From Actinomyces sp. oral taxon 170 str. F0386 (GTDB lineage Bacteria; Actinomycetota; Actinomycetes; Actinomycetales; Actinomycetaceae), in contig NZ_GL882526.1 in the NCBI RefSeq assembly GCF_000195595.1, positions 1 through 46,814 of the forward strand: a DNA stretch of 46,814 nt. Reading direction: 5' to 3'. This document shows, piece after piece, positions 25,235 through 41,959 of the stretch (positions are counted from its first letter, which is position 1; each line of letters opens with the position of its first letter). Under the pieces are notes generated by a model. The model saw only the letters and a program-made list of their open reading frames with translations. It searched no databases and was not told the origin of the DNA. The position numbers were made by a program, and so were the translations under genes.

Positions 25235-25343
25235 GGGGCCTCAACCGCTCTGAGGTGTTATCCTGCCAGGAACACTCAGCGCTCCCGTCTTTGCAGGGTT
25301 CGTGCTGTGCGCTTACGCCAACGGTGACGTTAAGGAGATTGTT

Positions 25344-26801: not shown

Positions 26802-27638
26802 ATGACGCTCCTGAACCAGCGCAAGGCAGACCCGGAACTGAACCGCTCGTTGCCGGAACAGGCCGAGCCGGCGACACACGGCCAGAACCAGGGCCCCGTC
26901 ATCCAGTCTGTCGACCGAGCTCTTGTTGTCCTCGAAGAACTGGCCAAGGACGGGACGAGCTCGTCACTCGCTCTGCTCGCTCAACGTACGGGGCTGCCGG
27001 GCCCCACAGTCCACCGCATCCTGCGAACTCTGGCCTCGCGAGGCTACGTCATCAAGACGGCTCGGGGCGAGTACTCCATCGGAGGCGCCTTCTTCGCTCT
27101 GACGACAACCGCCGGTCGATCCGTGGGGGCCGCCCTCCAGGATATTCTTGACCGGCTCAGCCAGGCCACAGGCGAGTCGGTAGCAGTGGCAATGCTTGAC
27201 GCCGACGAGGCTCTGTACATCGCGCATCGCACATCGACACAGTCCATGCGTCAGTTCACGCAGGTGGGGAATCGAGTCTGCCTGCACGCCACCGGCGTGG
27301 GCAAGGTGCTCCTGGCATCCATGGACTCCGAACACCGTACCTTTCTGCTTCACCACATGAAGCTCCCGGTCTTCACCTCGCACACTCTGGCAAATCGAGG
27401 TGAGCTCCAAGCAGAGATCGAGCAAATCGCCTCACACGGCTACGCCATCGATAACGAGGAGCAGGAGCTGGGCGTTCGTTGCATGGCTATGGGCATTCCA
27501 GGCAACAGCCTCTTCGCAGCCTCAGTATCGGGTCCTCCCTCACGCATGAACGCAGAACACATGACCCATGTCATTCTTCCAGCACTGATGAGCGCCGCGG
27601 AGGAGATCGCGGCCACCCTGACCGTCACACAAGCGTGA
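26802..27638 (+). CDS. IclR family transcriptional regulator
   Basis: A 278-residue regulator. After a polar 30-residue lead comes the winged helix (VIQSVDRALVVLEELA, then LALLAQRTGLPGPTVHRILRTL as two adjoining pieces). The IclR effector domain follows with NRVCLHATGVGKVLLA and a C-terminal GVRCMAMGIPG. In enterobacteria the IclR-type AllR controls allantoin and glyoxylate genes through glyoxylate and allantoin. Its position here, beside allantoinase and glyoxylate carboligase, suggests the same job. It starts 12 bp after the kinase stop and is probably co-transcribed with it. Confidence 0.87.
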   Translation: MTLLNQRKADPELNRSLPEQAEPATHGQNQGPVIQSVDRALVVLEELAKDGTSSSLALLAQRTGLPGPTVHRILRTLASRGYVIKTARGEYSIGGAFFALTTTAGRSVGAALQDILDRLSQATGESVAVAMLDADEALYIAHRTSTQSMRQFTQVGNRVCLHATGVGKVLLASMDSEHRTFLLHHMKLPVFTSHTLANRGELQAEIEQIASHGYAIDNEEQELGVRCMAMGIPGNSLFAASVSGPPSRMNAEHMTHVILPALMSAAEEIAATLTVTQA

Positions 27639-28402: not shown

Positions 28403-29122
28403 ATGAGGATTCTTGCGGTCAACGTCAACACAACCGAGTCGATGACACACAGCATTACCGAGGCCGCCCAGGCGGTCGTCAGCGCAGATACCGAGATCGT
28501 CGGGGTCACCCCAACCTTCGGCGCCCCCTCTGTTGAGGGAAACATGGAGTCCTACCTGGCGGCCACCGCCGTCATGGACGCAGTCACCCAATACGACGGA
28601 GAGTTCGACGCCGTCGTTCTGGCCGGATTCGGCGAACATGGCAAAGAGGGACTGATGGAGCTCCTCAGCGTTCCCGTTGTTGACATGACCGAGGCTGCGG
28701 CTCACATCGCCATGCTCCTGGGCAGCAGGTTCTCGGTCATCACCACGCTCGATCGCGCGGTCCCACTGATCGAAGATCGTCTGTTGAGCTTCGGTCTGGA
28801 CCGACGGTGCGCAGCCGTCCGCTCCACCGGACTCGGCGTTCTCGAGCTCGAGAACGCCGATGTCGCCAAGCAGGCCATCACCGAGCAGGCACGGCTTGCA
28901 GTGGAGGAGGAACGGGCCGAGGCGATCGTGCTGGGATGCGGAGGCATGGCCGGACTGGACCGGGAGCTGAGCGAGCTCCTGGGAATCCCGGTCGTCGAGG
29001 GAGTGGCGGCGGGCGCAATGCTCGCCGAGGGCCTCGTGAATCTGAGGCTGACCACATCCAAGATCCGCACCTACGCGCCTCCACGCCCCAAGTCACTCGC
29101 CGGCTGGCCCTTACAGCCCTGA
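28403..29122 (+). CDS. Asp/Glu racemase superfamily protein, single-cysteine type (allantoin/hydantoin racemase-like)
   Basis: A 239-residue protein of the hydantoin/allantoin racemase branch: MRILAVNVNTTESMT at the start, PVVDMTEAAAH in the middle, VLGCGGMAGL near 178 and GIPVVEGVAAG after it. Racemases use two cysteines. The second is present (GCGG), but where the first is expected (ACF-type motif) this protein has LAGFGEHGKEG with Gly. The same substitution is known in arylmalonate decarboxylase, a non-racemising member. So it may be a racemase variant or a one-base lyase/decarboxylase. The ATG is chosen for GGAGG five bases upstream. It is first gene of the operon with carbamate kinase and allantoinase. 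Confidence 0.75.
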   Translation: MRILAVNVNTTESMTHSITEAAQAVVSADTEIVGVTPTFGAPSVEGNMESYLAATAVMDAVTQYDGEFDAVVLAGFGEHGKEGLMELLSVPVVDMTEAAAHIAMLLGSRFSVITTLDRAVPLIEDRLLSFGLDRRCAAVRSTGLGVLELENADVAKQAITEQARLAVEEERAEAIVLGCGGMAGLDRELSELLGIPVVEGVAAGAMLAEGLVNLRLTTSKIRTYAPPRPKSLAGWPLQP

Positions 29123-29166
29123 ACCCCCACCCCACCTCTCTCTCCAACTCCGTCCACTCACCAAGC

Positions 29167-29182
29167 GGCGCAACGTTGCGCC
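29167..29182. promoter_or_regulatory. 16-bp perfect palindrome before the carbamate kinase ribosome site
   Basis: GGCGCAAC-GTTGCGCC. In RNA it could fold as a 6-bp hairpin with an ACGT loop one base before the GAAAGGA site, and so affect translation. As DNA it could be an operator. Confidence 0.4.
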
Positions 29183-29197
29183 CGAAAGGAATCTATC

Positions 29198-30145
29198 GTG
29201 CAGACGAATAATCGAGGCATCGTCATCGCCGTCGGCGGGAACGCCCTCATCAAGAAGAAGAACCAAATCTCCACCGACAACCAATCCGAGGCGATCCGAG
29301 AGACCTGTACCTATATCGCCGACATCGTCGAGCAGGGGTACAACCCGGTCATCACTCACGGCAACGGACCGCAGGTGGGATTCCTTCTGCGCCGAGCCGA
29401 GCTGGCCCTCGGAGAACTTCCCGCCATCCCCCTAGACGTACTCGGTGCCGACACCCAAGGAGCCACGGGCTATCTCTTCGCCCGCAATCTGCGCAACGTA
29501 CTTACGGAGCGTAGTATCGAGCGTCACATCGCCGCCATCGTCACCCAGTCCGTTGTCGACCCCGACGACCCGGCTTTCGACTCACCGACCAAGCCCATCG
29601 GCTCCTTCATGGACGAGCAAGAAGCGGAAAAGCACCGGGTGGAGGACGGTTGGGTCGTTAAGGAGGACGCGGGTCGCGGTTTTCGCCGCGTTGTCGCCTC
29701 CCCACAGCCCATCGACATCATCGAGCTCGGGATCATCAAGTCGCTTATCAGCTCAGGCGTCATGGTGATCGCCGCAGGCGGAGGCGGAATCCCCGTCACT
29801 CGCGAGAACGGGACGATACGTGGTCGCGAGGCGGTCATCGACAAGGATCTGGCCTCATCCCTCCTGGCTAACAGCCTCGAGGTCGAGGACTTCATTATCT
29901 GCACAGCCGTGGATCAGGTCTACCTGGATTTCAACTCTCCGACCCAAAGGGGAATCAGCACGATGACCGCCGATGAGGCTGCCGGCTACCTGACGGCAGA
30001 GCAGTTCGGAAGCGGCTCCATGGCCCCCAAGATCGAGGCGGCTATCAAGTTCCTCGAAAATGGAGGCCAGCGTGTCATCATCACATCCCTGGACCGCCTC
30101 GCCGACGCCCTTGACGGCAAGGCAGGAACCACCATTACCAACTGA
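29198..30145 (+). CDS. Carbamate kinase (ArcC/AllK/YqeA family)
   Basis: A 315-residue kinase of the amino acid kinase fold: IAVGGNAL (residues 9-16), THGNGPQVGFLL, VIAAGGGGIPVTRENG, and DKDLASSLLA, which are all carbamate kinase hallmarks. It makes ATP from carbamoyl phosphate and ADP, releasing carbamate that decays to ammonia and CO2. The GTG start has GAAAGGA upstream. In arginine deiminase or oxamate pathways it follows a catabolic carbamoyltransferase; here the only carbamoyltransferase is the unusual one three genes downstream, which must be the supplier within this operon (inference). Confidence 0.92.
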   Translation: MQTNNRGIVIAVGGNALIKKKNQISTDNQSEAIRETCTYIADIVEQGYNPVITHGNGPQVGFLLRRAELALGELPAIPLDVLGADTQGATGYLFARNLRNVLTERSIERHIAAIVTQSVVDPDDPAFDSPTKPIGSFMDEQEAEKHRVEDGWVVKEDAGRGFRRVVASPQPIDIIELGIIKSLISSGVMVIAAGGGGIPVTRENGTIRGREAVIDKDLASSLLANSLEVEDFIICTAVDQVYLDFNSPTQRGISTMTADEAAGYLTAEQFGSGSMAPKIEAAIKFLENGGQRVIITSLDRLADALDGKAGTTITN

Positions 30146-30191
30146 GAATCAGGAGCAGACATAGAACTATTGACAGAAAGGCACCACCGAC

Positions 30192-31694
30192 ATGAGTACG
30201 CAAGTTTCATCAGCATCTCAGACACAACCCAAGGTCGATGTGGACGCCCACCTGATCAATGACGACCTGGCACCGGCAAAAGAACGCCACTGGTCATTCT
30301 TTTCTCTTTTTGCCATGTGGATGTCTGACATCCATTCCATCGGTGGGTACACGTTCGCAGCCGGACTATTCACCCTCGGGTTGGGAGCGGCGTACGTCTT
30401 CGCCAGCCTGTCTGTAGGTATTGTCATCGTTTTCTTCATTATGAACCTGGTCGGCTTTGCCGGTCAGAAGACCGGGCTTTGCTATCCCGTTCTGGCTCGC
30501 ATCTCCTTCGGAACCATTGGTTCGAATGTTCCCGCCCTCACTCGCGGCTTCGTAGCCATCTGTTGGTACGGAATTCAGACCTGGCTAGCATCTCGGGCTG
30601 TCATCGTGCTGGCCGCCGACATATGGCCGAACATCACCGACTACGGCCGACAGCGGTTCCTTGGCGAGAGCCTACTCGGCTGGGCTGCCTTCCTGCTCAT
30701 GTGGGCACTGCAGCTGCTGCTTCTGCGCAACGGCATGGAAACCATTCGAAAGTTCCAGGACTTCGCCGGCCCCGCGGTGTGGATCGTCATGCTTGTTCTC
30801 ACGATCTACGTTCTCAGGCAAGCCGGGTGGCACATCTCGCTGTCAGTCCCCTCCAAACCCGCCGAATGGGGGCCGGTGCACGCCTTCCTGGCTGCAATCG
30901 CGCTCACTGTCACATATTTCGCCACCCTCCTACTCAACTTCTGTGACTTCTCTCGGTTCTCACCGTCACGCAAGGCTGTTTGGATGGCTAATCTGTGGGG
31001 GCTTCCGGTCAACTTCATTGCATTCTCAGTCGTGTCCGTGCTTGTCACGGCAGGATCTAAGCAGATCTACGGCGAGTATATCTACGATCCCGTTGAGCTG
31101 GTTGGGAAGATCGACTCCCCGTTGGCGTCCGTCCTGGGTGCACTGACTTTTACAGTCGCCACCCTGGGAATCAACGTCGTCGCGAATTTCGTCTCGCCTG
31201 CGTACGACCTTGCCAACGCCTGGCCATCGAAGATCACCTTCGTTCGAGGAGGAATCATCTCAGCCGTCATCGCCCTGATCATTACTCCATGGAACCTCTA
31301 CAACAACCCCATTATCGTCAACATCTTCCTGGCCGCTCTGGGGGCGGTTCTGGGGCCGTTGTTCGGGATCATCATCGCCGACTACTATCTCTTGCGTCGA
31401 CAGAAGGTCCAGGTTTCCGAGCTGTTCAAGGCCAACGGCATGCACTCATTCAAGAACGGCTGGAATATGCGAGCTGTCGCCACTTTCGTTGTCACGTCCA
31501 TTCCCTCGATCATCGTGGCCGTCGTTCCGCTGTCATGGTGCAAGTTCCTCAGCCCCTTCTCATGGTTCATCGGTGCAGTGCTGTCATTCATCGTGCACTA
31601 CTACGTCTCCCGGAACGACCCTTACGTCATCAGAGCGGTTGAGGCCGCTTCCAAGGTGGATCTCGACGCAGATCTTGCAGCAGTGGCGCGGTGA
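30192..31694 (+). CDS. NCS1 family permease, probable allantoin/purine-type uptake (copy 1)
   Basis: A 500-residue transporter of the nucleobase:cation symporter-1 family with 12 predicted helices. The polar N-terminus LINDDLAPAKERHWSFFSLFAMWMSD (split over residues 21-46) leads into helix 1, and GICWYG-like FVAICWYGIQTWLASRA, VANFVSPAYDLAN and the following ITPWNLYNNP are family landmarks. NCS1 members import allantoin, hydantoins, uracil, cytosine or purines. Position directly before allantoinase points to allantoin. A second permease of the family lies at the end of the operon. Confidence 0.88.
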   Translation: MSTQVSSASQTQPKVDVDAHLINDDLAPAKERHWSFFSLFAMWMSDIHSIGGYTFAAGLFTLGLGAAYVFASLSVGIVIVFFIMNLVGFAGQKTGLCYPVLARISFGTIGSNVPALTRGFVAICWYGIQTWLASRAVIVLAADIWPNITDYGRQRFLGESLLGWAAFLLMWALQLLLLRNGMETIRKFQDFAGPAVWIVMLVLTIYVLRQAGWHISLSVPSKPAEWGPVHAFLAAIALTVTYFATLLLNFCDFSRFSPSRKAVWMANLWGLPVNFIAFSVVSVLVTAGSKQIYGEYIYDPVELVGKIDSPLASVLGALTFTVATLGINVVANFVSPAYDLANAWPSKITFVRGGIISAVIALIITPWNLYNNPIIVNIFLAALGAVLGPLFGIIIADYYLLRRQKVQVSELFKANGMHSFKNGWNMRAVATFVVTSIPSIIVAVVPLSWCKFLSPFSWFIGAVLSFIVHYYVSRNDPYVIRAVEAASKVDLDADLAAVAR

Positions 31695-31764
31695 CCTGCA
31701 GCAGCAGGCTCCCGATTCACCCTCATCACCGATACGCAATGCATCTCATCAAGGAGGATAGAAG

Positions 31765-33102
31765 ATGTCTACCACGGTCGCGGACCTATTGATCCACGCA
31801 GAAAAGACCGTTTTTACTGACGGGGTTCGTCCCGCCACGGTCGTCATCAAGGACGAGAAGATCGTCGCCGTCGAGTCCTTCGGGACGTCCGTGAACGCGG
31901 ACGAGGAGCTCAATGTTCCTCGAGGACAGGTACTTATGCCCGGCCTGCTGGACTCTCACGTCCACGTCAACGAACCGGGGCGAACCCAGTGGGAAGGTTA
32001 TGAGAGCGCCACCCGTGCAGCATTGGCCGGGGGAATCACAACCATTCTTGACATGCCCCTCAACTCCGATCCTCCGACAGTGGACGTGGATAATCTCGAC
32101 CTCAAGCGCACCGCCGCAACCGGAAAGCTCTCCGTCGACGTCGGCTTCTGGGGAGGCGCCGTTCCCGGCAACAAGGATGACCTCGCCGCTCTGTGGGAGA
32201 GAGGGGTCTTCGGCTTCAAGTGCTTCACGGCCCACTCCGGCATCGACGAGTATGGCTGTCTCCCTTACCGGGAGATCGAGGAGGACCTGGAAGAGATCTC
32301 CCGCCTGGGGGCGGTCATGATCGTGCATGCCGAGGATCCCGAGATCCTTGCCGGCGCCCCTCAGGAGTTCGGCCCCCGTTACGCGAGTTATCTTGCTTCA
32401 CGCCCACCGGAGGCTGAGAACGCAGCGATCGAGCACGTCCTCGATGCCGCTCGCAGGACCGGTGCCCGGGTCCACATCCTGCACCTGTCCAGCGCTCAGG
32501 CTCTGGAGCCGATTCGGCGAGCCAAGGAGGAGGGCCTGCGTGTGACGGTGGAGACGTGTCCCCACTACCTCACCTTCGCTGCCGAGAAGATCCCCGATGG
32601 TGCCACTGAGTACAAGTGCGCCCCTCCCCTGCGCGAGGAGGCCAACCGGCGCGCTCTGTGGGAGGGCCTCAAGAGCGGCATTATCGATCACATCGCCTCC
32701 GACCACTCCCCGTGCACGGTGGACCTCAAGCGCAAGGAGAGCGGCGACTTCGGCCAGGCCTGGGGAGGTGTTTCCTCAGTGCAGCTGGGGCTTCCAGCGG
32801 TATGGACGGCGGGGCAGGAGTTCGGTGTCGAGCTGAGCGACATCGCGCGTTGGTTCGCCGCCAACCCCGCCCGCACCTTCAAGGTCGACCGCAAGGGCTC
32901 AATCTGCGCAGGCAATGACGCCGACCTTGTCATCTTCGACCCGGAGGAGACCTTCGACGTCGACGTCGAGTTCCTTGAGCACAAGAACAAAATCTCCCCC
33001 TACCACGGACGGACTCTACGAGGCGTCGTCCACACGATCATTCTGCGCGGCCGCACCGTGGACCGCGATTCCATGCACGGTCGCATGATCGCCCGCGCAT
33101 GA
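31765..33102 (+). CDS. allB: Allantoinase
   Basis: A 445-residue cyclic amidohydrolase that opens the hydantoin ring of allantoin to give allantoate. The allantoinase-type signature is clear: MPGLLDSHVHVNEPGRTQWEGY (two adjoining pieces, residues 57-78), then TILDMPLNSDPPT. The carbamylated Lys is in GFKCFT (about 151), the metal His are in HVHVN and in HILHLSS, and the catalytic Asp is in ASDHSPC with W-GG-SSVQ after it. NKISPYHGR near the C-terminus also fits AllB. AAGGAGG precedes the ATG. It is the strongest pointer to the island's substrate. Confidence 0.92.
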   Translation: MSTTVADLLIHAEKTVFTDGVRPATVVIKDEKIVAVESFGTSVNADEELNVPRGQVLMPGLLDSHVHVNEPGRTQWEGYESATRAALAGGITTILDMPLNSDPPTVDVDNLDLKRTAATGKLSVDVGFWGGAVPGNKDDLAALWERGVFGFKCFTAHSGIDEYGCLPYREIEEDLEEISRLGAVMIVHAEDPEILAGAPQEFGPRYASYLASRPPEAENAAIEHVLDAARRTGARVHILHLSSAQALEPIRRAKEEGLRVTVETCPHYLTFAAEKIPDGATEYKCAPPLREEANRRALWEGLKSGIIDHIASDHSPCTVDLKRKESGDFGQAWGGVSSVQLGLPAVWTAGQEFGVELSDIARWFAANPARTFKVDRKGSICAGNDADLVIFDPEETFDVDVEFLEHKNKISPYHGRTLRGVVHTIILRGRTVDRDSMHGRMIARA

Positions 33103-33188
33103 GCGATCAGATTCTCACCACTCCATCATCTTCAAGCACATCACTCATACGTCATCACTCACCCCAACAACACGACTAGGAGTCACCC

Positions 33189-34184
33189 ATGTCCAAGTAC
33201 ATGCGTTCCATGAAGGGCCTCATCGACGCCGTCGACCACGTAGGCAAGAACTTCATCTCGATCAACGACATGTCCAACGAGCAGCTGCTGAACCTCTTCG
33301 AGCTGGGTAAAGAACTCGAGCTGTTCAATCGCAGCAAGGTCGACCTCTTCGACGACCGCATGCTCGCTCTCATGTTCTTCCAGCCCTCCACGCGTACACG
33401 CATGAGCTTCCAGACAGCCATGGAGCGCATGGGCGGCAACGTCATCGTCGAGGCCAACCCCAAGGTGACCTCTTCCGTCGCCAAAGAGGAGTCCATCGAG
33501 GACACCATGCGCTGCGTCTCGCAGTACGCCAACCTTATCGTTCTGCGGCACTACGACGAGGAGGAGGCCCGCCGAGGCGCCGAGTCCGCGGAGTGCCCAG
33601 TCATCAACGGTGGGTGGGGGCACTGGGAGCACCCGACCCAGGCGCTCCTTGACCTTTACACGCTGTGGCGCCGTTTCGGTCGAATCGAGGGGCTCAACGT
33701 GGCTGTGGTATCCCCCGACATGGTGGAGGCTCGCACCGGGCACTCCATGGCCTACGGGCTGGCCCGTCTGGGAGCGAACGTCACCATCGCCTCTGACTCC
33801 GACCGGCGCACACCGACCAACATCATCAATCGGATCCACGACGACCTGGGTGCCCAGGTGAGAGAGGAGTTCGACTTCGAGCAGGACTCCTTCAACGAGT
33901 TCGTGCGCGGCCAGGACCTCATCTACCTCCCGGGTTGCTCAGCCCCCGCCGGAGCCAAGGCGGAAGAGTTCAAGACTCTCATGGACCGCTACTTCGTCCG
34001 CTACGAGACCCTCAAGGACGAGGCAGAAAAGGGTCACAAGGTCTACGTGACCCACACGCTGCCGCGCCGTAAGGGCGAGATGGATCTGCGTATCGATAAC
34101 ACGGAGCACCAGCTGCATTTCCGCGCAATTCTGCAGTCGGTGTCGATCCGAATGGCCCTGCTCGCTTCCATTCTGGGCCTGTGA
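33189..34184 (+). CDS. Aspartate/ornithine carbamoyltransferase family protein, catabolic, substrate unassigned
   Basis: A 331-residue transcarbamylase. The carbamoyl phosphate site is complete: PSTRTRMSF (STRTR at 67-71), Lys99 in SSVAKEESIEDT and HPTQALLDLYT (148-158). The second-substrate side ends in THTLPRRKGEMDLRIDNTEH, closer to ATCase than to OTCase. Neither pyrimidine synthesis nor arginine genes are near; instead it sits between allantoinase and the glyoxylate genes in an operon with carbamate kinase. Such a pairing indicates the reverse, phosphorolytic direction (ureido compound plus phosphate to amine plus carbamoyl phosphate). E. coli YgeW, beside a hydantoinase-type and a carbamate kinase-type gene, is a comparable case. 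I infer allantoate or a product of it as substrate. Confidence 0.85.
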   Translation: MSKYMRSMKGLIDAVDHVGKNFISINDMSNEQLLNLFELGKELELFNRSKVDLFDDRMLALMFFQPSTRTRMSFQTAMERMGGNVIVEANPKVTSSVAKEESIEDTMRCVSQYANLIVLRHYDEEEARRGAESAECPVINGGWGHWEHPTQALLDLYTLWRRFGRIEGLNVAVVSPDMVEARTGHSMAYGLARLGANVTIASDSDRRTPTNIINRIHDDLGAQVREEFDFEQDSFNEFVRGQDLIYLPGCSAPAGAKAEEFKTLMDRYFVRYETLKDEAEKGHKVYVTHTLPRRKGEMDLRIDNTEHQLHFRAILQSVSIRMALLASILGL

Positions 34185-34191
34185 CCAGTCC

Positions 34192-34234
34192 GTTGTCTGC
34201 TGGGGGCGGGATGTCCCCGCCCCCAGCAGACAAC
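34192..34234 (+). other. 19-bp perfect hairpin between carbamoyltransferase and transketolase genes
   Basis: The stem at 34192-34210 pairs base for base with 34216-34234 around the loop ATGTC; it is mostly GC. It starts eight bases after the carbamoyltransferase stop. No U tract follows. It is probably a partial terminator or an mRNA-stabilising 3' structure that splits the operon into two expression levels. Confidence 0.6.
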
Positions 34235-34300
34235 AATCCACCAGCAAACAGCGGGGACGTTGCGACGACGTCGAGAGTAATCCCGCATCACGAAAGGAGG

Positions 34301-35125
34301 ATGATGGTGGACACACAAGAACTCGAGAAGCTGCAAGGCATTGCTCGGCAGTGCCGCCGGGACATTGTCAAAATGGTGCACCACGCAGGTAGCGGCCACC
34401 CGGCAGGATCACTGTCAGCAATTGACATCCTGGTAGTTCTCTACTTCCGCCACATGAATATCCGCACGGAAGAGCCCCAGTGGCGAGAACGAGACATGTT
34501 CTTCCTCTCCAAAGGCCACTGCACACCCGCCTACTACTCGGTCCTGGCAGCTCGCGGCTACTTTGACCATGACGAGCTCATGACCTTCCGAGACCTGGGC
34601 ACTCGACTGCAGGGGCACCCCTCCAACACGCACCTTGAGTGCGTCGACTCCTCATCCGGTTCTCTGGGTCAAGGACTGTCGCTGGCCAATGGGGCAGCGC
34701 TGGCGGCGAAGTACGACCTGCTGGACTCTCGTTACTACGTCATGCTCGGCGATGGTGAGATCCAGGAGGGTCAGGTGTGGGAGGCCGCAATGACGTCCTC
34801 CGACCACGATCTGGATAACGTGTGCGCCATTCTCGACGCCAACAGCATTCAGCTTGACGGCCCCGTTGACTCCGTGAAATCTCTCGGCGACATAGACGCC
34901 AAATGGCGTGCTTTCGGATGGCACGTCATCGATATCGACGGACACAACATGCAAGAGGTGGACGAGGCGCTCACTCAGGCCAATTCCACGATCGGACGCC
35001 CAACTCTGATCATCGCACGCACAGTCAAGGGCAAGGGCGTCTCATTCATGGAGAACACCTCGAAATATCACGGCCTCGCCCCCACGGACGAAGAACTCGA
35101 ACTGGCATTGGAGGAACTTCGATGA
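34301..35125 (+). CDS. Transketolase, N-terminal half (split enzyme)
   Basis: About 274 residues holding the thiamine diphosphate pyrophosphate-binding half: HHAGSGHPAGSLSAIDILV, LSKGHCTPAYYSVLA, GSLGQGLSLANGAALAAK and the motif GDGEIQEGQVWEAA with its Asp-Gly and trailing Asn (LDANSIQLDG). It forms one active site with the C-terminal half encoded next, which starts in its stop codon (ATGA). The start is uncertain within three codons: ATG ATG GTG follow a perfect AAAGGAGG, and the third (34307) has the best spacing. Transketolases move a two-carbon ketol group; hydroxypyruvate, which this island can make, is a classic irreversible donor. Confidence 0.88.
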   Translation: MMVDTQELEKLQGIARQCRRDIVKMVHHAGSGHPAGSLSAIDILVVLYFRHMNIRTEEPQWRERDMFFLSKGHCTPAYYSVLAARGYFDHDELMTFRDLGTRLQGHPSNTHLECVDSSSGSLGQGLSLANGAALAAKYDLLDSRYYVMLGDGEIQEGQVWEAAMTSSDHDLDNVCAILDANSIQLDGPVDSVKSLGDIDAKWRAFGWHVIDIDGHNMQEVDEALTQANSTIGRPTLIIARTVKGKGVSFMENTSKYHGLAPTDEELELALEELR

Positions 35126-36063
35126 CCGCGATGAAAGAACCGCGCGATGGGTACGCGCAAGCCCTGCTGGAACTGGGAGCCCAGCACGACGACGTATTCG
35201 TCCTCGATGGGGACTGCGCAACACCCAACTACACGATCCGGTTCCGTAATGCCTACCCGGAGAGGTTCGTCAACATCGGCATCGCCGAGTGCGACATCAT
35301 CGGCACCGCAGCAGGCCTGTCCCTTCTGGGAAAGGTTCCCTTCGCCAACGCCTACGCGAATTTCCTGACGGGTCGGGGCTACGACCAGATTCGCGTGTCG
35401 GTCGCATACTGCCAGCGAAACGTCAAGATCGCCGGACACAACGCCGGCACCACCGCCGCCCAGGAGGGGGCCACCCACCTGCCCCTGGAAGACGTCGGCC
35501 TCATGCGCGCCATCCCTGACATGACAGTGATCGTGCCCGCCGACGCCACCGAGATGCACAAGGCCACCTTGGCGGCTTACGAGTTCGACGGCCCGGTGTA
35601 TCTGCGTGTCGGCAAACTCCCGGTTCCGGAGCTCACCGGAGAGGAAACGCCTTTCACCATTGGAAAGGCAGTCACCATGCGAGAGGGATCCGACGTGACC
35701 CTCGTATCCACGGGCTGCATCCTCTCCGAAGTACTCAAGGCCGCCGAGATTCTTAAGACGGAAGGCGTGAAGGCCGAGGTGCTCCACGTCCACACCGTCA
35801 AGCCCATCGACGCCGAAGCGATCGTCACCTCGGCCACCAAGACAGGCGCAGTGGTCAGCGCCGAGGAGCACTCCATCCTCAACGGCCTGGGATCAGCTGT
35901 CGCCGAGGTTCTGGGCGAGAACCTTCCTGTTCCGCTGGAGCGCATCGGTACCCGCGACATTTTCGGACTTTCGGGAACCATGGACGAGCTGTTCGACTAC
36001 TTCGGACTGCGTGCCGAGAACATCGCTGACGCGGCGCGCCGGGCGATCTCTCGCAAGGCCTAG
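35122..36063 (+). CDS. Transketolase, C-terminal half (split enzyme)
   Basis: 313 residues with the pyrimidine-binding and C-terminal transketolase domains. The catalytic Glu that activates thiamine is in NIGIAECDIIGTAAGL (about residue 54). PFANAYANFLTGRGYDQIR, AGHNAGTTAAQEGATHLPLEDV and PADATEM are typical. Overlap with the N-terminal half as ATGA ensures equal synthesis. Split transketolases are common, but one within a glyoxylate/allantoin operon is unusual. It could add the ketol unit of hydroxypyruvate to glyceraldehyde 3-phosphate, giving xylulose 5-phosphate and CO2 (inference). A 1-deoxyxylulose-type synthase is less likely by motif and size. Confidence 0.88.
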   Translation: MTAMKEPRDGYAQALLELGAQHDDVFVLDGDCATPNYTIRFRNAYPERFVNIGIAECDIIGTAAGLSLLGKVPFANAYANFLTGRGYDQIRVSVAYCQRNVKIAGHNAGTTAAQEGATHLPLEDVGLMRAIPDMTVIVPADATEMHKATLAAYEFDGPVYLRVGKLPVPELTGEETPFTIGKAVTMREGSDVTLVSTGCILSEVLKAAEILKTEGVKAEVLHVHTVKPIDAEAIVTSATKTGAVVSAEEHSILNGLGSAVAEVLGENLPVPLERIGTRDIFGLSGTMDELFDYFGLRAENIADAARRAISRKA

Positions 36064-36119
36064 AAAGAACAAACGCGAACGCTTTCACCATCCGACATCA
36101 GACTGGGAAGGAAAATAGA

Positions 36120-37037
36120 ATGAAATCATCGCTACACGACTACATGAAGGTCGGACTCATACACTTTATGGCCTACCCCTTCGCTGCCAGCGGCGACGGT
36201 GATATTGCCAGAACGATTGAGGAAATCGCGGTCGACGACTTCTTCGACGCCATCGAGATCACACGCATCAATGATGTCGAGCAGCGCAAGATCGCCAAGT
36301 CGATCATCGACACTGCCGGGATGACCGTCGGCTTCGGCGCGCAGCCCTACATCCTCAAGGGAAAGCTCAACCTCAACTCCACTGATGAGCAGGAACGCGC
36401 CAAGGCCGTGGAGGTCCTCAAGGAAGCCGTCGATCAGGCCTACGAGATGGGCGCACGCAAGTTCGGCTTCCTCTCCGGACCGAAGCCGGCAACGGGGCAG
36501 GATGAGGCGCTGGCGCTTCTGGCGGACTCGATCACCCAGATCGGCCGCTATGCCGCGTCCAAGGGCGATCTGACCCTGTCACTGGAGACCTTCGACGACT
36601 CGACCGACAAGTGCGCCCTCATCGGCACCAATCGGCTGGCGGTGGAGCTCTCGCGAGAGGTTCGCAAGACCATTCCGGACTTCGGTCTGATGGTCGACCT
36701 GTCCCATCTCCCCATGCAGGGCGAGACGATTCACGAGGCTCTGTCCGTCACCGAGGAGCACATCAACCACGCACATATCGGTAGCTGCGTCATCCGCGAT
36801 CCCTCCGATCCGGCTTACGGCGACCTCCACCCGGCGTTCTCCCACCCCAAGGGCGAGTGCGGTGTACCGGAGGTACGGGAGTTCCTCCGGGGCCTGCTGG
36901 AGATCGGCTACCTGAGCGAGGACGCCCCGGAGCGGCCGGTGGTCTCCTTCGAGGTTCAGCCACTCGGGGGACAGACAACCGGGCCCGTGGTCGCCAACGC
37001 CAAGCGAGTTCTGCGCGAAGCCTGGCGCACCCTGTAG
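36120..37037 (+). CDS. TIM-barrel sugar isomerase/epimerase family protein (hydroxypyruvate isomerase role?)
   Basis: 305 residues of the AP-endonuclease-2-like isomerase fold. Likely metal ligands in order: Glu in LSLETFDD, Asp in LMVDLSHLP, His in NHAHIGS, and Glu in SFEVQPLG at the last strand. Hydroxypyruvate isomerase (Hyi) of gcl operons belongs to this fold but is about 260 residues, and this protein is longer and diverges in its motifs. Because the operon has carboligase and tartronate semialdehyde reductase, conversion between tartronate semialdehyde and hydroxypyruvate is the most economical role, but another sugar-acid isomerisation is possible. Ribosome site GGAAGGAAA upstream. 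Confidence 0.7.
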   Translation: MKSSLHDYMKVGLIHFMAYPFAASGDGDIARTIEEIAVDDFFDAIEITRINDVEQRKIAKSIIDTAGMTVGFGAQPYILKGKLNLNSTDEQERAKAVEVLKEAVDQAYEMGARKFGFLSGPKPATGQDEALALLADSITQIGRYAASKGDLTLSLETFDDSTDKCALIGTNRLAVELSREVRKTIPDFGLMVDLSHLPMQGETIHEALSVTEEHINHAHIGSCVIRDPSDPAYGDLHPAFSHPKGECGVPEVREFLRGLLEIGYLSEDAPERPVVSFEVQPLGGQTTGPVVANAKRVLREAWRTL

Positions 37038-37139
37038 CCGCCACCCTCATCAGTCCTCTCATTCTTCCGGAACGGCGCAGTCGCACCGGATAGACACCAC
37101 GGAAACACCCAACATCACACCATTCAAGGAGTACTCACC

Positions 37140-37556
37140 ATGACCATGCTCGAGATCACGGCCGGCGGTTTCACCTTCAAGGCCCGATACGAGGAGGACA
37201 GCGCCCCCAAGACGGTGGCAGCCTTCAAGAAGCACCTTTTGGGACTGACGTCCAAGATCATTCACGTTCGCTGGTCCGGACAGGCCGGTTGGATCCCCTT
37301 CGGGGATCTCGACCTGGGCCTGGAGCCGGAGAACGGCACCTGCTATCCCCACCCCGGAGAGATCGTCATCTACCCCGGCGGGGTGTCCGAGACTGAGCTG
37401 CTGATCGGCTACGGGTACGTGAACTTCGCATCCAAGGCGGGCCAGCTGGCCGGGAACCACTTCGCCACCATCGTCGAGGGCAATGAGCACCTTGCCGAGC
37501 TCGGGGAGAAGTTCCTCTGGGAAGGCGCCCAGGAGATCAGCTTCCGGGAAGTCTGA
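37140..37556 (+). CDS. DUF3830 family protein (cyclophilin-like fold)
   Basis: 138 residues with the DUF3830 pattern: APKTVAAFKKHL, HVRWSGQAGWIP, YPHPGEIVIYPGG, ETELLIGYG and NHFATIVEG. The family has a cyclophilin-like barrel and recurs beside amidohydrolases, racemase-like proteins and hydantoin or acid-sugar genes, but I know of no settled activity. It is too small to be a standard enzyme of the pathway; it could be a small lyase, isomerase or binding protein. AAGGAG precedes the ATG. Its fixed place between the isomerase and reductase genes suggests a true part in the pathway. Confidence 0.75.
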   Translation: MTMLEITAGGFTFKARYEEDSAPKTVAAFKKHLLGLTSKIIHVRWSGQAGWIPFGDLDLGLEPENGTCYPHPGEIVIYPGGVSETELLIGYGYVNFASKAGQLAGNHFATIVEGNEHLAELGEKFLWEGAQEISFREV

Positions 37557-37624
37557 CAGCCACAACCGGACAGAGGAAGAACAACTAGGCAACCACGACG
37601 GTCAACGACGACCGGGAGGAAGAC

Positions 37625-38557
37625 ATGACCGCGCACGACGATATTCAGACCATACGAACCGTGGGCTTTATCGGTTTGGGTTCGATGGGCCTGCCCATGG
37701 CGCTGAACCTGCTCAAAGCGGGTTTCGTCGTGCGCGGCCACTCCCGGAGCGCCGAGAGAACCCGTCTCTTCACGGAAGCCGGCGGGATCGACGCACCGGA
37801 TCTCGGCAGCATCCTTGAGAAGGCCGACGCCGTCATCACCATGGTGCCCGACGGCGACGTCGTCGAAGAGCTCATGGAGGCGCCTGACGGGATCGCAGCT
37901 CGAGCGCCGCGCGGCTGCCTCATGCTCGACATGAGCACGATCGCCCCCGACCAGGCAAGGGGCCTGGCCGCACGGTGCCGGGATCTGGGAATCGACTTCC
38001 TCGACGCACCCGTCTCAGGAGGCACCAAAGGGGCGCGCGACGGCAGCCTCACCATCATGGTCGGGGGCGAAGAGGCGACCTTCGCCAAGGCCCAGCCGCT
38101 CCTGTCCGCCATGGGCACCACCATCACCCACATGGGACAGGAGGGATCGGGCCAGGTCACAAAGGCCGCCAACCAGCTCATTGTGGGAGGCGCCCTGGCC
38201 GTCCTGTCCGAGGCCATCATCCTGCTTGAACACAACGGCGTGAACCCCGTCCACGCACTCGGGGCGCTTTCGCAGGGCCTGGCCGGCTCCAGGATCTTGG
38301 ACCTGAAGGGCGAGGCGTCCGTTTCTCGGAGCTTCAGCCCCACTTTCACCATCAGGCTGCACAGCAAAGACATGGGGATCGTCCAGTCGACCGCACGTTC
38401 TTCCGGCTGCTGCCTGCCTACAGCCAGTTCCGTAGCCCAGCTCTTCACCGCGGCAGAGGCCAACGGGTGGACGGACCTCGATCACTCCGCCCTACTCAAG
38501 GTCATCGAGCTGCTCAGCGGCACATCCAGTAACGATCAGAGAGAAGAACAGTCATGA
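37625..38557 (+). CDS. glxR: 2-hydroxy-3-oxopropionate (tartronate semialdehyde) reductase
   Basis: A 310-residue beta-hydroxyacid dehydrogenase. The Rossmann [16 protein letters not shown] opens the protein (residues 15-30); [22 protein letters not shown] is the substrate signature (two adjoining pieces near 124-145), and the catalytic Lys is in [12 protein letters not shown]. The enzyme reduces tartronate semialdehyde to D-glycerate with NAD(P)H. Its stop overlaps the start of the carboligase gene (ATGA), so the enzymes that make and use the aldehyde are produced together. A related 2-hydroxyacid dehydrogenase activity is possible by sequence alone; the coupling to gcl makes GlxR by far the best call. 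Confidence 0.9.
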
Positions 38558-40338
38558 CACACATGCGTGCAGTCGACGCAATCGTCCAGATCCTGGAGAA
38601 GGAGGGCGCCACCCAGGCCTTCGGGGTCCCCGGTGCCGCCATCAATCCTTTGTACTCCGCCATGAAGGAGCACGGTGGAATACGGCATGTCCTGGCGCGG
38701 CATGTTGAGGCCGCCTCCCATATGGCGGAGGGCTACACGCGCACAGTGCCGGGCAACATCGGGGTATGTATCGGTACCTCTGGTCCAGGCGGGACCGACA
38801 TGGTCACCGGCATGTACTCGGCCTGGGCCGACTCCATTCCCATCCTGTGCATCACGGGCCAAGCCAAGGTGGCCATGCTCCACAAGGAGGAGTTCCAGGG
38901 GGTCGATATCGCCTCGATCGCGGAGCCGGTCACCAAGATGGCAACGACGGTCCTGGAGGCGGCACAGATTCCGGGAACCTTCGCCAAGGCCTTCCAGCTC
39001 ATGCGGACGGGACGACGGGGCCCAGTTCTCATCGACCTCCCTATGGACGTTCAGATGGCCACTATCGATTTCGACATCGATGCCTACGAGCCGCTTCCCG
39101 TGCCGGTCCCAAGGATGTCGTCGTACCAGGCCAGCACCATTCTGGACATGCTCGATGCCGCGGAGCACCCGGTGCTGATCGCAGGCGGCGGCATCATGAA
39201 CGCCGATGCCTCCCATGAGCTGGTTGAGTTCGCCGAGTTCCTGGGAATTCCGGTGATCTCGACTCTGATGGGCTGGGGCTCGATCCCCGACGACCATCCC
39301 CTCGCCCAGGGGATGGCTGGAATCCAGACCTCCCACCGCTACGCCAACGCCACCTTCCTGGAGGCGGATCTGGTCATCGGCATCGGTAACCGCTGGGCCG
39401 CCCGCCACACCGGGGACCTCGCCTCCTACCGGGGCGAGCGCCGTTTCGTGCACATCGACGTCGAGCCGACTCAGATCGGCCGGGTCTTCCCCGCTGACTT
39501 CTCGTCAGTATCCGATGCCAAAGCGGCTCTAGATGTGCTTCTCGAGACTGCCCGCAAGCGTTACGGGCACCCGGTCGAGAGGTATCGGCAGTGGGTCAAG
39601 GAGTGCAACGAGCGCAAGCGGACGATGCTGCGCCGTACCCACTTCGACCAAGCACCACTGAAGCCCCAGCGCGTCTACGAGGAGATGTGCCGCGCCTTCG
39701 GCCCCGAGACTCGCTACGTCACCACGATCGGACTGTCCCAGATCGCCGCTGCGCAGATGCTGCATGTATACCGTCCGCACCACTGGATCAATGCGGGTCA
39801 GGCCGGCCCCTTGGGGTGGACAATTCCCGCCGCGATCGGCGCGGCTGTCGCCGATCCGCAGACACCCGTAGTGGCACTGTCCGGCGACTACGACTTCCAG
39901 TTTCTCATCGAGGAGCTGGCTGTGGCCGCGCACTTCCGCATTCCTTACGTTCACGTCATCGTCAACAACGCCTACCTCGGACTCATCCGCCAGTCCCAGA
40001 GGGCTTTCGACATGGATTATCAGGTCCAACTGTCCTTCAAGAATCTCAATGCACCGGAGACCGACGGCTACGGGGTCGACCATATCGGTGTCGCCGAGTC
40101 GCTCGGCTGCAAGGCGATACGGGCACGAACCCCTGAGGAGCTGTCGGAAGCCCTGCGCACCGCACGTCAGACAGCACAGACGTTCAGTGTTCCCGTCATT
40201 GTCGAAGCCATCCTCGAGCGCGTCACGAATATCTCTATGGGAGCTTCCGTTGATGCCGTCACAGAGTTCGAGGAGGTCGCAGAGAACCCGGCGCTCGACG
40301 CCCCTACGGCCGTGGCCCTGCAACAGGAGAGTAAGTAG
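38554..40338 (+). CDS. gcl: Glyoxylate carboligase (tartronate semialdehyde synthase)
   Basis: A 594-residue thiamine diphosphate enzyme. It joins two glyoxylates to tartronate semialdehyde and CO2. The N-terminal domain has [16 protein letters not shown] and [17 protein letters not shown], where a Val stands in place of the Glu that activates thiamine in related enzymes; that exchange is the known mark of Gcl. The C-terminal domain has [15 protein letters not shown] and [11 protein letters not shown], the thiamine diphosphate motif. Length equals that of E. coli Gcl. It indicates that the island's carbon flows through glyoxylate. Confidence 0.94.
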
Positions 40339-40406
40339 ACAGCCACACATGAAATCATCAGTCGAAATTCAAACTTCAAGACAAACGACTACTCAAGGAG
40401 AGTATT

Positions 40407-41894
40407 GTGAAAGCGCTCGAAGCGGACTACGACGATCTCCGGGAGGGTGATCCTCAAGGGCGGCTGTTCAATGACGATCTTGCCCCTGCCCGTGCCAGTG
40501 ACCGTCAGTGGAACAGCTATGCCCTGTTCTCACTATGGATGAATGACGCCCACAACGCCTCGAACTACACCTTCGCAGCAGGACTGTTCATCGGCACCGG
40601 CGCCATCGTGGGCATGACCCCCTTATCGATCGTCATCGGAGTGTTCATCGCAACATTCATCATCTTCATCGCCTGCTGCATATCCGGGCTGATGGGGTAT
40701 GAGACCGGAGCGCCCTACCCGGTCATCTCCCGCGTCACCTGGGGCGTGTGGGGTGCGAACTTCCCGGCCCTGGTTCGAGGGGTCGTCGCTATCGCGTGGT
40801 ACGGGATCCAGACCTATCTGGCATCCATCTCGCTGGAATTGCTGTTGATGCGGATCTTCCCTCCCATGCAGCACTGGACCGCGTCCTTCGTGGGGCTACG
40901 CCTGTCCGGGTGGGTGGCCTTCCTTATCCTGTCGGGGATCCAGCTGATCATCGTCTGGCGAGGCATGGAGGCGGTGCGTCACTTCCAGGGTGCTGCCGGA
41001 CCGATCATCTGGGTCATCATGATCGGCCTGGGAGTCTGGATGCTCTCCCAGGCAGGCTGGGACTTCAGGTGGACAGTCAACGCGGATAACGTCACACCCC
41101 CTATCGGCACGCAGCTCTACCAGATCTTCGTGACGGTGGGACTGACAATCGGGACGCTCGCGACCCTTATGCTCAACTTCTCCGACTTCGCCCGCTACGC
41201 ACCGAGTCGTCGCTCCGTGGTCATGGGAAATGTTCTGGGCCTGCCTCTGAACTGGACCGCCTTCGCTCTGACCTCGGTCTTGTGCTCTGCCGCTGCCATC
41301 AAGGTTTACGGCGAGGCCTTCCATGATCCGGGCGACCTGCTGTCACGCATCGACAACGACGTCGTCTTCTACGTGGTCTCGATCGCCTTCATCGTGGCTA
41401 CGGTCGGGGTGAATATTGTGGCGAACTTCGTCTCGGCTGCTTTCGATCTGTCCAACCTCAACCCGAGAAGAATCTCTTTCAGGGTGGGCGGAATCGTGTC
41501 CGTCATTGCATCGATCGTCGTGACTCCCTGGAACCTCTACGGAAGTCCGACGGCGATCAACTACTTCCTCGGTTCTCTCGGGGCGCTTCTCGGCCCCTTC
41601 TTCGGAATCCTCACACTTGACTACTTCTACTACAAGCGGTCACGAGTGGACCTGCGGGATCTGTACTCCCCCAATCCGGAAGGACGCTACTTCTACCGAG
41701 GAGGCCTCAATACCGACGCTCTGCTCGGATTCATTCCGGCGGCCATCGTCGCTCTGTGCATCGCCCTGGTTCCGGCTTTCAGCAAGGTGTCTCCTTTCTC
41801 CTGGTTCATCGCCGCACCATTAGGAGCCCTGTGCTACTGGATCGTGCAGACGCTGCGGGGCAACAAGCCCCTGCCCACCGGCTCCGGCGACTGA
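40407..41894 (+). CDS. NCS1 family permease (copy 2)
   Basis: A 495-residue relative of the other permease in this island: same N-terminal pattern (FNDDLAPARASDRQWNSYALF), same VAIAWYGIQTYLASISLE and IVANFVSAAFDLSNLNP, and 12 helices. The two differ through the helices that line the substrate path, so they probably bring in different compounds, for example allantoin and a related ureide, hydantoin or purine. The start is GTG with AAGGAG six bases before. It ends the enzyme operon and precedes the AEC carrier by 65 bp. Confidence 0.87.
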   Translation: MKALEADYDDLREGDPQGRLFNDDLAPARASDRQWNSYALFSLWMNDAHNASNYTFAAGLFIGTGAIVGMTPLSIVIGVFIATFIIFIACCISGLMGYETGAPYPVISRVTWGVWGANFPALVRGVVAIAWYGIQTYLASISLELLLMRIFPPMQHWTASFVGLRLSGWVAFLILSGIQLIIVWRGMEAVRHFQGAAGPIIWVIMIGLGVWMLSQAGWDFRWTVNADNVTPPIGTQLYQIFVTVGLTIGTLATLMLNFSDFARYAPSRRSVVMGNVLGLPLNWTAFALTSVLCSAAAIKVYGEAFHDPGDLLSRIDNDVVFYVVSIAFIVATVGVNIVANFVSAAFDLSNLNPRRISFRVGGIVSVIASIVVTPWNLYGSPTAINYFLGSLGALLGPFFGILTLDYFYYKRSRVDLRDLYSPNPEGRYFYRGGLNTDALLGFIPAAIVALCIALVPAFSKVSPFSWFIAAPLGALCYWIVQTLRGNKPLPTGSGD

Positions 41895-41959
41895 CGCACT
41901 TCTTGAACCACAGGCCGGTATCGACACCGCCCTGCTGACGAGAGGGAGGAGGTGAGCCA

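Follow-up and report, generated by a model that had tools for sequence, protein, structure and literature searches.

The 13-gene run at positions 28403-42973 of the window (the whole 46,814-nucleotide stretch of DNA that was analyzed) is predicted to encode a ureidoglycine carbamoyltransferase (UGTCase) route, in which allantoate is cleaved by phosphorolysis and carbamate kinase acts downstream; we put the probability that this route operates through the operon at roughly 0.87. The original prediction had proposed that a carbamoyltransferase working in reverse could phosphorolyse allantoate, and had regarded the complete path as undescribed. The core idea is correct, but allantoate phosphorolysis is a known step: in 2013 it was both predicted and demonstrated by assay for Rxyl_2847, whose gene neighborhood matches (PMC4016543), and a 2015 review already flagged it as an energy source (PMC4581275). 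What seems to be new is the step after UGTCase, with a DUF3830 protein as the candidate.

All 13 genes lie on the plus strand with gaps of −4 to 102 bases between neighbors, and they have the appearance of a single operon of an Actinomyces-like bacterium. The genes named in the original prediction (allantoinase, an ATCase-fold carbamoyltransferase, carbamate kinase, a tartronate semialdehyde reductase (TSR)-like protein, glyoxylate carboligase (GCL), and NCS1 permeases) were all confirmed at the positions given; absent from its list were the allantoin racemase, the split transketolase, the TIM barrel, and the DUF3830 protein. The racemase starts at the ATG at 28403 with ggagga just 5' of it, and its match to PDB 5LFD spans residues 1 to 236 of 239, while the ATG of the C-terminal transketolase half at 35122 overlaps the stop of the N-terminal half. 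Neither NCS1 permease matched an NCBIfam permease model at cut-off; the first scored 279 bits against the allantoin permease model, under the cut-off of 620.

Features of the allantoin operon and its upstream regulator gene in the window (scores in bits)
Feature	Positions	Strand	Basis
IclR-type regulator, upstream of operon	26802..27638	+	PF01614, PF09339
Allantoin racemase (Asp/Glu/hydantoin racemase family), first gene	28403..29122	+	PF01177; PDB 5LFD allantoin racemase 312.6
Carbamate kinase, arcC-type	29198..30145	+	TIGR00746 389.5 (cut-off 358.25)
NCS1 permease, probable allantoin uptake	30192..31694	+	PF02133
Allantoinase AllB	31765..33102	+	TIGR03178 541.9 (cut-off 357.85)
UGTCase ortholog, ATCase-fold carbamoyltransferase	33189..34184	+	PF02729/PF00185; 203/331 identical to L091 (taken as Rxyl_2847)
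Split transketolase, N-terminal half	34181..35125	+	PF00456 187.7
Split transketolase, C-terminal half	35122..36063	+	PF02779, PF02780 (on longer ORF 34903-36063)
Xylose-isomerase-like TIM barrel, isomerase/epimerase-type	36120..37037	+	PF01261 68
DUF3830 protein, probably orthologous to Rxyl_2846 ("unknown")	37140..37556	+	PF12903 100.5 (cut-off 26)
TSR-like dehydrogenase	37625..38557	+	PF03446/PF14833; TIGR01505 312.5 (below cut-off 340.75)
GCL	38554..40338	+	TIGR01504 1002.5 (cut-off 711.2)
Second NCS1 permease	40407..41894	+	PF02133 284.5
AEC-type membrane transport protein, last of 13 genes	41960..42973	+	PF03547 75; 65-base gap 5'

The carbamoyltransferase was assigned to UGTCase (EC 2.1.3.16). 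It aligns end to end with L091 at 61% identity, with two gaps (7 and 1 residues). We took L091, in genome G015, to be Rxyl_2847 of Rubrobacter xylanophilus because the gene order fits Table 2 of PMC4016543 and 13 of the 14 published residue numbers fit; published R126 is a leucine in L091 itself and was excluded. The G015 neighborhood runs allB-DUF3830-carbamoyltransferase-arcC, followed by TSR and GCL. Among the 13 predicted substrate residues, 12 are kept in the window enzyme (S74, T75, R76, T77, H155, Q158, T298, L299, S102, K106, R189, and S258 in reference numbering), and reference K261 is replaced by A254, a position split evenly between Ala and Lys, 15 each, in 30 near sequences (the window and L005-L033). 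Among the matches listed in two genome searches, UGTCase family members were at least 62% identical, versus 26 to 43% for the others. Purified Rxyl_2847 converts allantoate and Pi to ureidoglycine and carbamoyl phosphate; allantoate was cleaved with phosphate or arsenate, and activity was undetectable without either (PMC4016543). The UGTCase reaction predicted for the window enzyme, assayed by others on this ortholog, is supported here by orthology, by the gene set, and by the lack of a match for most genes of the rival middle routes. At 9 of 29 near loci L005-L033 (L005, L012-L015, L020, L023, L032, and L033), some with only short stretches of DNA, no carbamate kinase gene was seen.

The window enzyme carries the motifs HTLP (residues 289-292) and GCS, and HTLP or HSLP is present in 80 of 80 loci. 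In Table 1 of PMC4016543, "pseudo-ATCase 1", the subgroup said to hold Rxyl_2847, is printed with HPLA and AIA/AIS/SIA, which the window motifs do not match; they agree instead with the "pseudo-ATCase 2" row. Since L091 also has HTLP and GCS, and H(T/S)LP is given as the characteristic UGTCase motif (PMC4581275), the row labels appear to be wrong as printed, and a reading of the enzyme as "subgroup 2", hence not UGTCase, was dropped.

A YgeW-type identity and an ATCase identity were both rejected. YgeW, of reductive uric acid breakdown, phosphorolyses a closely similar diureido acid, with carbamate kinase acting next (PMC12507026), and its cluster likewise holds a hydantoinase and a carbamate kinase. 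An activity of this kind on 2,3-diureidopropionate is nevertheless very improbable here: the YgeW models scored 30.9 (cut-off 500) and 29.9 (cut-off 453), far too low, the neighboring hydrolase is AllB above cut-off, GCL and allantoin racemase stand in the operon, and no PF00291 (YgeX) or PF07992 (YgfK) protein was found among the operon genes. The window enzyme would differ from YgeW in superfamily branch and in substrate. That the enzyme serves pyrimidine synthesis as another aspartate carbamoyltransferase is, in our view, the most improbable reading. The fold is that of ATCase, and UGTCase relatives often carry the name aspartate carbamoyltransferase in the sources, but GCS, which all 20 sequences of alignment A1 share, the window enzyme among them, replaces the aspartate-binding RxQ, the TIGR00670 score of 216.3 lies below the cut-off of 236.95, and PyrB (379.9 bits, cut-off 263) is encoded away from the operon. 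The host PyrB fell beside Rubrobacter in one tree on a branch of 6.2 that was flagged as long and unsure, and this placement was not used.

The UGTCase reading also agrees with what was found in the rest of the host genome, where the original prediction had proposed a search for conventional middle-route and ure genes. Ureidoglycolate lyase (AllA), the AllD family, and AllG had no match in the host genome, while the positive controls matched. Its four M20 proteins (DapE, a PRK07907 subfamily member, a TIGR01891 amidohydrolase, and one with no model over cut-off) include no AllC-like protein, the sole allantoate amidohydrolase model among the matches listed reaching 25.5 against a cut-off of 424. 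Allantoicase gave no match in the host genome, but no control genome matched either, so its absence is not established. A complete conventional gene set (AllC or allantoicase, AllE, then AllA or AllD) was not found in the host genome, with AllA, AllD, and M20 covered, and the expectation that no conventional middle route would turn up was borne out on these families. The ure search did find a gene, that for urease alpha.

The original prediction went further and allowed two ATP per allantoin, with the carbamoyltransferase acting a second time, on ureidoglycine, to give two carbamoyl phosphates. Such double action is chemically possible but unlikely. The visible product of the assayed ortholog at 37 °C was ureidoglycine (PMC4016543), and relatives that seemingly take a second carbamoyl phosphate encode a different enzyme, either a second carbamoyltransferase (Chloroflexota loci) or AllG, FdrA/AllF being seen in L060 among the AllG-type relatives. 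In addition, AllG is unmatched and urease present in the host genome, which besides this enzyme encodes only PyrB and two ArgF as carbamoyltransferases; with none to spare, a second phosphorolysis is unsupported and one ATP per allantoin is expected. Of the proposed phosphorolysis, the cleavage of allantoate and the use of carbamoyl phosphate by carbamate kinase are supported, and the second cleavage is not.

To ask what follows UGTCase, we compared 84 loci encoding UGTCase or a near relative, several of them near copies of one another. AllE was present in 41, DUF3830 in 21, a class V aminotransferase in 11, and none of the three in 11 (L042 lacks them within 10 kb on each flank); no locus has two. 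GCL was found in 20 of the 84 loci, every one with DUF3830. Before counting, we dropped tblastn matches covering 45% or less of the query or with E > 1e-8, as well as an aminotransferase match in L031 (25% identity), and left out the second copies L147 and L149-L152 (equal to L011, L033, L013, L014, and L015). The comparison across Actinomycetaceae that the original prediction had suggested gave UGTCase in 7 and DUF3830 in 8 of 121 genomes, the 8 including all 7.

This genomic association makes DUF3830 (PF12903) a good candidate for the next step, and we give just about even odds that it is an enzyme converting ureidoglycine to glyoxylate, urea, and ammonia. The main rival, to which we assign somewhat less than an even chance, is that ureidoglycine decays without an enzyme and that DUF3830 does something else, such as binding or stabilizing UGTCase or acting on another ureide. 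Ureidoglycine is thermally unstable, and a non-enzymatic breakdown at 60 °C was put forward by Barba et al. (PMC4016543). DUF3830 has no known activity on record, and in G047, which lacks UGTCase, the gene for a distant family member overlaps one for a class III aminotransferase. Against this, AllE or the aminotransferase occurs in 52 of the 84 loci and DUF3830 only where both are absent, and DUF3830 is strongly conserved: in L013-L017, L028, L032, and L033 it was the best conserved of the compared proteins, at 73 to 89% versus 60 to 68% for UGTCase. An alignment of 42 DUF3830 sequences has 37 invariant columns, including H42, R44, W45, E64, S83, E84, E86, K99, N106, and Q131 in window numbering, and their profile matches part of PDB 3kop (E 1.2e-5). 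No paper on DUF3830 by name was found in the literature searched.

If DUF3830 is this enzyme, the step would have a third solution, unrelated to AllE and the class V aminotransferase, and the gap that the 2013 work left in the UGTCase route would be filled; the small protein is a testable candidate. The pathway would then be modular, with the first cleavage constant and the ureidoglycine enzyme exchanged. On a tree of 65 rows (41 AllE loci, 18 DUF3830 rows, and 6 of 22 then-unlabeled loci, of which L057 and L060 were later shown to have the aminotransferase), two changes suffice for the AllE/DUF3830 swap and a single change is also possible, so the swap reflects few independent events. The 18 DUF3830 rows were the window, R. 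xylanophilus, and 16 loci, with L032, L118, and L148 left out.

In the host organism, we propose that the NCS1 permeases would bring in allantoin, the racemase interconvert its enantiomers, and AllB open the ring to allantoate. UGTCase would convert allantoate and phosphate to ureidoglycine and carbamoyl phosphate, from which carbamate kinase would gain one ATP. Ureidoglycine would yield glyoxylate, urea, and ammonia, with DUF3830 catalyzing or steering the reaction and spontaneous decay also occurring, and the urease encoded elsewhere could split the urea. GCL and the reductase would carry glyoxylate into C3 and pentose metabolism, a flow that the TIM barrel and split transketolase possibly join; the latter may feed pentose phosphates. 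Each of these reactions in the host, including the DUF3830 role, is inferred.

The R. xylanophilus purine route (Rxyl_2840-2854; PMC4016543) shares with the window the orthologous carbamoyltransferase, allantoinase, DUF3830, carbamate kinase, TSR, and GCL in one neighborhood. The window operon adds the allantoin racemase, two NCS1 permeases, the split transketolase, and the TIM barrel, and genes for uricase, HIU hydrolase, and an asparaginase-like protein are all missing from its 13. Its DUF3830 gene sits after the TIM barrel, with three genes between it and the carbamoyltransferase, unlike in other Actinomyces operons. The anaerobic allantoin pathway of E. coli (AllB, AllC, AllE, AllA/AllD, AllFGH, AllK) has in common with the window route allantoinase, carbamate kinase, a glyoxylate branch, and energy from carbamoyl phosphate, but in E. 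coli it is AllFGH that makes the carbamoyl phosphate, from oxalurate in the final stage rather than from allantoate (PMC11326118); searches of the host genome turned up no equivalent of AllC, AllA, AllD, or AllG. As far as the papers found go, allantoate phosphorolysis has been assayed in one thermophile. Actinomycetaceae such as Actinomyces probably use this energy-saving step, and if the group with 39 to 46% identity works alike, it would extend to eight further phyla.

For the fate of glyoxylate, a redox-neutral phosphoketolase fermentation (2 glyoxylate to acetate and 2 CO2 through GCL and transketolase, with the TIM barrel serving as hydroxypyruvate isomerase) was rejected for want of phosphoketolase: PF03894 had no match in any of the 16 searched genomes with UGTCase, the host included, and matched in 3 of 14 controls and, among genomes of the same genus that lack UGTCase, in 1 of 6. 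A hydroxypyruvate isomerase role for the TIM barrel is not supported, the model scoring 19 bits against a cut-off of 353.45; its PDB matches, all weak, were to ketose 3-epimerases. The upstream IclR-type protein is a possible regulator of the operon, and IclR-like genes occur at related loci too (L011, L013-L015, L021, L028, L033, L117, L118, and L148).

Comparison with characterized proteins revealed that the window carbamoyltransferase most likely cleaves allantoate phosphorolytically, as the original prediction had proposed; it is an ortholog of the ureidoglycine carbamoyltransferase (UGTCase) Rxyl_2847 of Rubrobacter xylanophilus. The step had been thought undescribed, but Rxyl_2847 was predicted and then assayed in 2013 by Barba, Dutoit, Legrain and Labedan: in the sections of PMC4016543 consulted, the purified enzyme converted allantoate with phosphate or arsenate to ureidoglycine and carbamoyl phosphate, and activity was undetectable when both were omitted. 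The reference we compared, from genome G015 (taken as R. xylanophilus), is probably the assayed protein itself because gene order and residue numbers fit. Its order of uricase, allB, DUF3830, carbamoyltransferase, carbamate kinase, IclR, tartronate semialdehyde reductase (TSR) and glyoxylate carboligase (GCL), a stretch that also holds an asparaginase-like gene, agrees with Table 2 of PMC4016543 as consulted. For the R. xylanophilus enzyme, a 2015 review (PMC4581275) gives 14 residues and an H(T/S)LP motif; all residue numbers but one match the G015 protein (13 of 14; R126 is Leu). The window protein is identical to this reference at 203 of 331 residues and keeps 12 of the 13 usable listed residues (K261 is Ala). 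Among Rubrobacteraceae, UGTCase was found in 5 of 39 genomes, at 62% identity.

Table 1 of PMC4016543, in the part consulted, assigns HPLA and AIA/AIS/SIA to pseudo-ATCase subgroup 1, said to include Rxyl_2847, and H[ST]LP and GX[SC] to subgroup 2, said to comprise a single organism. Since the motifs in the G015 protein are HTLP and GCS, in line with the motif in PMC4581275, and since a single organism could hardly yield the printed alternatives, the two motif rows appear to be exchanged. Taken literally, the table would exclude the window enzyme from the UGTCase subgroup; this reading was dropped, as the reference itself has HTLP/GCS.

All operon genes named in the original prediction are present and run in one direction, and the racemase, transketolase, TIM barrel and DUF3830 genes are additions to that list. 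This is a real, coherent allantoin operon around the step described in 2013.

Features of the window, of the strain's own genome (M20 proteins) and of compared loci (loci with UGTCase or relatives, and the DUF3830 locus of G047, carry L numbers)
Feature	Position	Strand	Remark
M20 protein, TIGR01891 amidohydrolase	window 826-2241		
M20 protein, DapE			above cut-off
M20 protein, PRK07907 subfamily			above cut-off
M20 protein, fourth			no model over cut-off
GntR/FCD regulator and four-carbon acid sugar kinase-like gene (SBD_N/NBD_C)	window 24548-26789		upstream of operon
Operon	window 28403-42973	+	13 genes, intergenic gaps -4 to 102 bases
Genes 1-5: allantoin racemase, carbamate kinase, NCS1 permease, allantoinase, carbamoyltransferase	carbamoyltransferase 33189-34184	+	
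Genes 6-9: split transketolase (two genes), TIM barrel, DUF3830	transketolase 34181-36063; DUF3830 37140-37556	+	
Genes 10-13: TSR-like protein, GCL, second NCS1 permease, AEC transporter		+	
DUF3830 of genome G047 (L156)	G047:C24:750963-751427		
Aminotransferase locus L060	10001-17244		
Other aminotransferase loci			L057, L064, L065, L073, L075-L079, L082

The prediction had set phosphorolysis against a complete conventional allantoate route, and neither AllA nor AllD was found in the strain's own genome (3.14 Mb, 76 contigs, 99.96% complete). Among 12 genomes with UGTCase (7 Actinomycetaceae, 5 Rubrobacteraceae), none had a ureidoglycolate lyase and two had AllG, which the own genome lacks; the E. 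coli control was positive in both searches. The AllD family, with four positive controls, matched in 2 of 13 genomes (the 12 plus that of locus L039), one above cut-off. Allantoicase was found in 0 of 12, but the controls were silent too, so its absence is not shown. The search for allC returned four M20 peptidases in the own genome; among the model matches listed for them, the only allantoate amidohydrolase model scored 25.5 against a cut-off of 424. Urease alpha, also to be looked for, was found (TIGR01792, 937 bits, cut-off 680), in this genome only among the 7 Actinomycetaceae. A second cleavage, which the prediction had allowed, is unsupported: apart from UGTCase the genome encodes three carbamoyltransferases, of which PyrB and one ornithine enzyme exceed their cut-offs and the last is classed as ornithine-type by its sequence only. 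The second phosphorolysis thus has no candidate enzyme, and we therefore expect one ATP per allantoin.

The fate of ureidoglycine was compared across 84 loci: the best 80 of 124 relatives from one scan of named genomes (29 at 56-90% identity, 51 at 39-46%), plus R. xylanophilus, a second Rubrobacteraceae genome, genome G097 and the window. AllE homologues were found in 41, DUF3830 in 21 and one kind of class V aminotransferase (at least 69% identical to the L060 copy) in 11; no two occurred together in any of the 84. Eleven loci had none of the three; of these, L042 alone is flanked by 10 kb on each side, and the rest have shorter flanks. In the 39-46% group, AllE lies on the same strand at most 300 bases upstream of the carbamoyltransferase in 31 of 51 loci, and all three AllE copies scanned (two Chloroflexota, one Pseudomonas) scored above the AllE cut-off. 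The AllE family is named for activity on ureidoglycine. In Bacillus, a class V aminotransferase that uses ureidoglycine and glyoxylate is known; the L060 aminotransferase reached no cut-off among NCBIfam models. Judged by the AllE name and the Bacillus precedent, a likely ureidoglycine enzyme is thus a regular part of UGTCase loci. The 11 aminotransferase loci, several with marine sample names, combine a UGTCase relative, carbamate kinase and the aminotransferase with an asparaginase-like gene (11/11) and AllG (10/11), and L060 also has an FdrA/AllF gene; a route through ureidoglycine aminotransferase and oxamate carbamoyltransferase is probable there.

Five loci from Chloroflexota and Spirochaetota (L023, L025, L026, L029, L030) hold, besides UGTCase, an AllB-like gene, AllE, a protein resembling ketol-acid reductoisomerase and a second carbamoyltransferase, which is OTC/AOTC-like; the L023 matches reach no more than 33% for AllB and 39% for the reductoisomerase. 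We infer that two carbamoyl phosphates per allantoin are plausible here, which resembles the original idea: AllE would give ureidoglycolate, the reductoisomerase-like protein would serve as ureidoglycolate dehydrogenase and the second carbamoyltransferase would act on oxalurate.

GCL was found in 20 of the 84 loci, always with DUF3830; in L021, the sole DUF3830 locus without it, the sequence stops inside the reductase gene. We propose that DUF3830 (PF12903) converts ureidoglycine to glyoxylate, urea and ammonia, glyoxylate being the suggested product because AllA was not found and GCL requires glyoxylate. Spontaneous decay of ureidoglycine, counted against such an enzyme, is a serious possibility at somewhat under even odds: ureidoglycine is described as unstable by itself in the consulted part of PMC4016543. 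Also counting against the proposal, the exchange of AllE for DUF3830 represents few independent events, since two changes on the tree, perhaps one, suffice. DUF3830 is the testable point of the UGTCase allantoin route.

Across 121 Actinomycetaceae genomes, UGTCase was found in 7 (at least 66% identity; the next match by E-value is 32% identical) and DUF3830 in 8, among them all 7 UGTCase genomes. The copy in the eighth, G047, scored 201 bits versus 94-105 for the others; it belongs to another subfamily, and its gene overlaps one for a class III aminotransferase. The domain family thus has further roles. DUF3830 was the best-conserved compared protein in L013-L017, L028, L032 and L033 (73-89% to the window; UGTCase 60-68%), was conserved similarly to UGTCase in the Actinomyces/Trueperella loci L005-L012 (79-90% and 82-90%), and was lower than UGTCase against Rubrobacter (53-55% versus 61-62%). 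Aligning 42 sequences leaves 37 columns invariant. A profile matches PDB 3kop in part (E 1.2e-5), an uncharacterised protein whose fold we take to be cyclophilin-like; the literature searched contained no paper on DUF3830 by name or on ureidoglycine together with "cyclophilin-like".

The operon was likely gained horizontally. Its G+C is 0.613 versus 0.686 for window 1-24000 and 0.63-0.69 for seven other stretches of the genome; UGTCase occurs in this genome only among 7 sampled from the genus, and its closest relatives among named genomes (90% identity) are in Trueperella pyogenes and 'Actinomyces sp. ph3'. In the latter two (L012 and L005), the operon is much alike, and carbamate kinase was not found in the 21 kb covered. 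The split transketolase and TIM barrel are kept in all eight loci L005-L012, including L007, L009 and L011, where the reductase gene was not found; phosphoketolase had no match in 16 searched genomes with UGTCase, this one included. The product of the four-carbon acid sugar kinase-like gene, with relatives only in L005, L010 and L012 among the best 80 of 124 loci, may phosphorylate the C3 or C4 acids at which the pathway ends.
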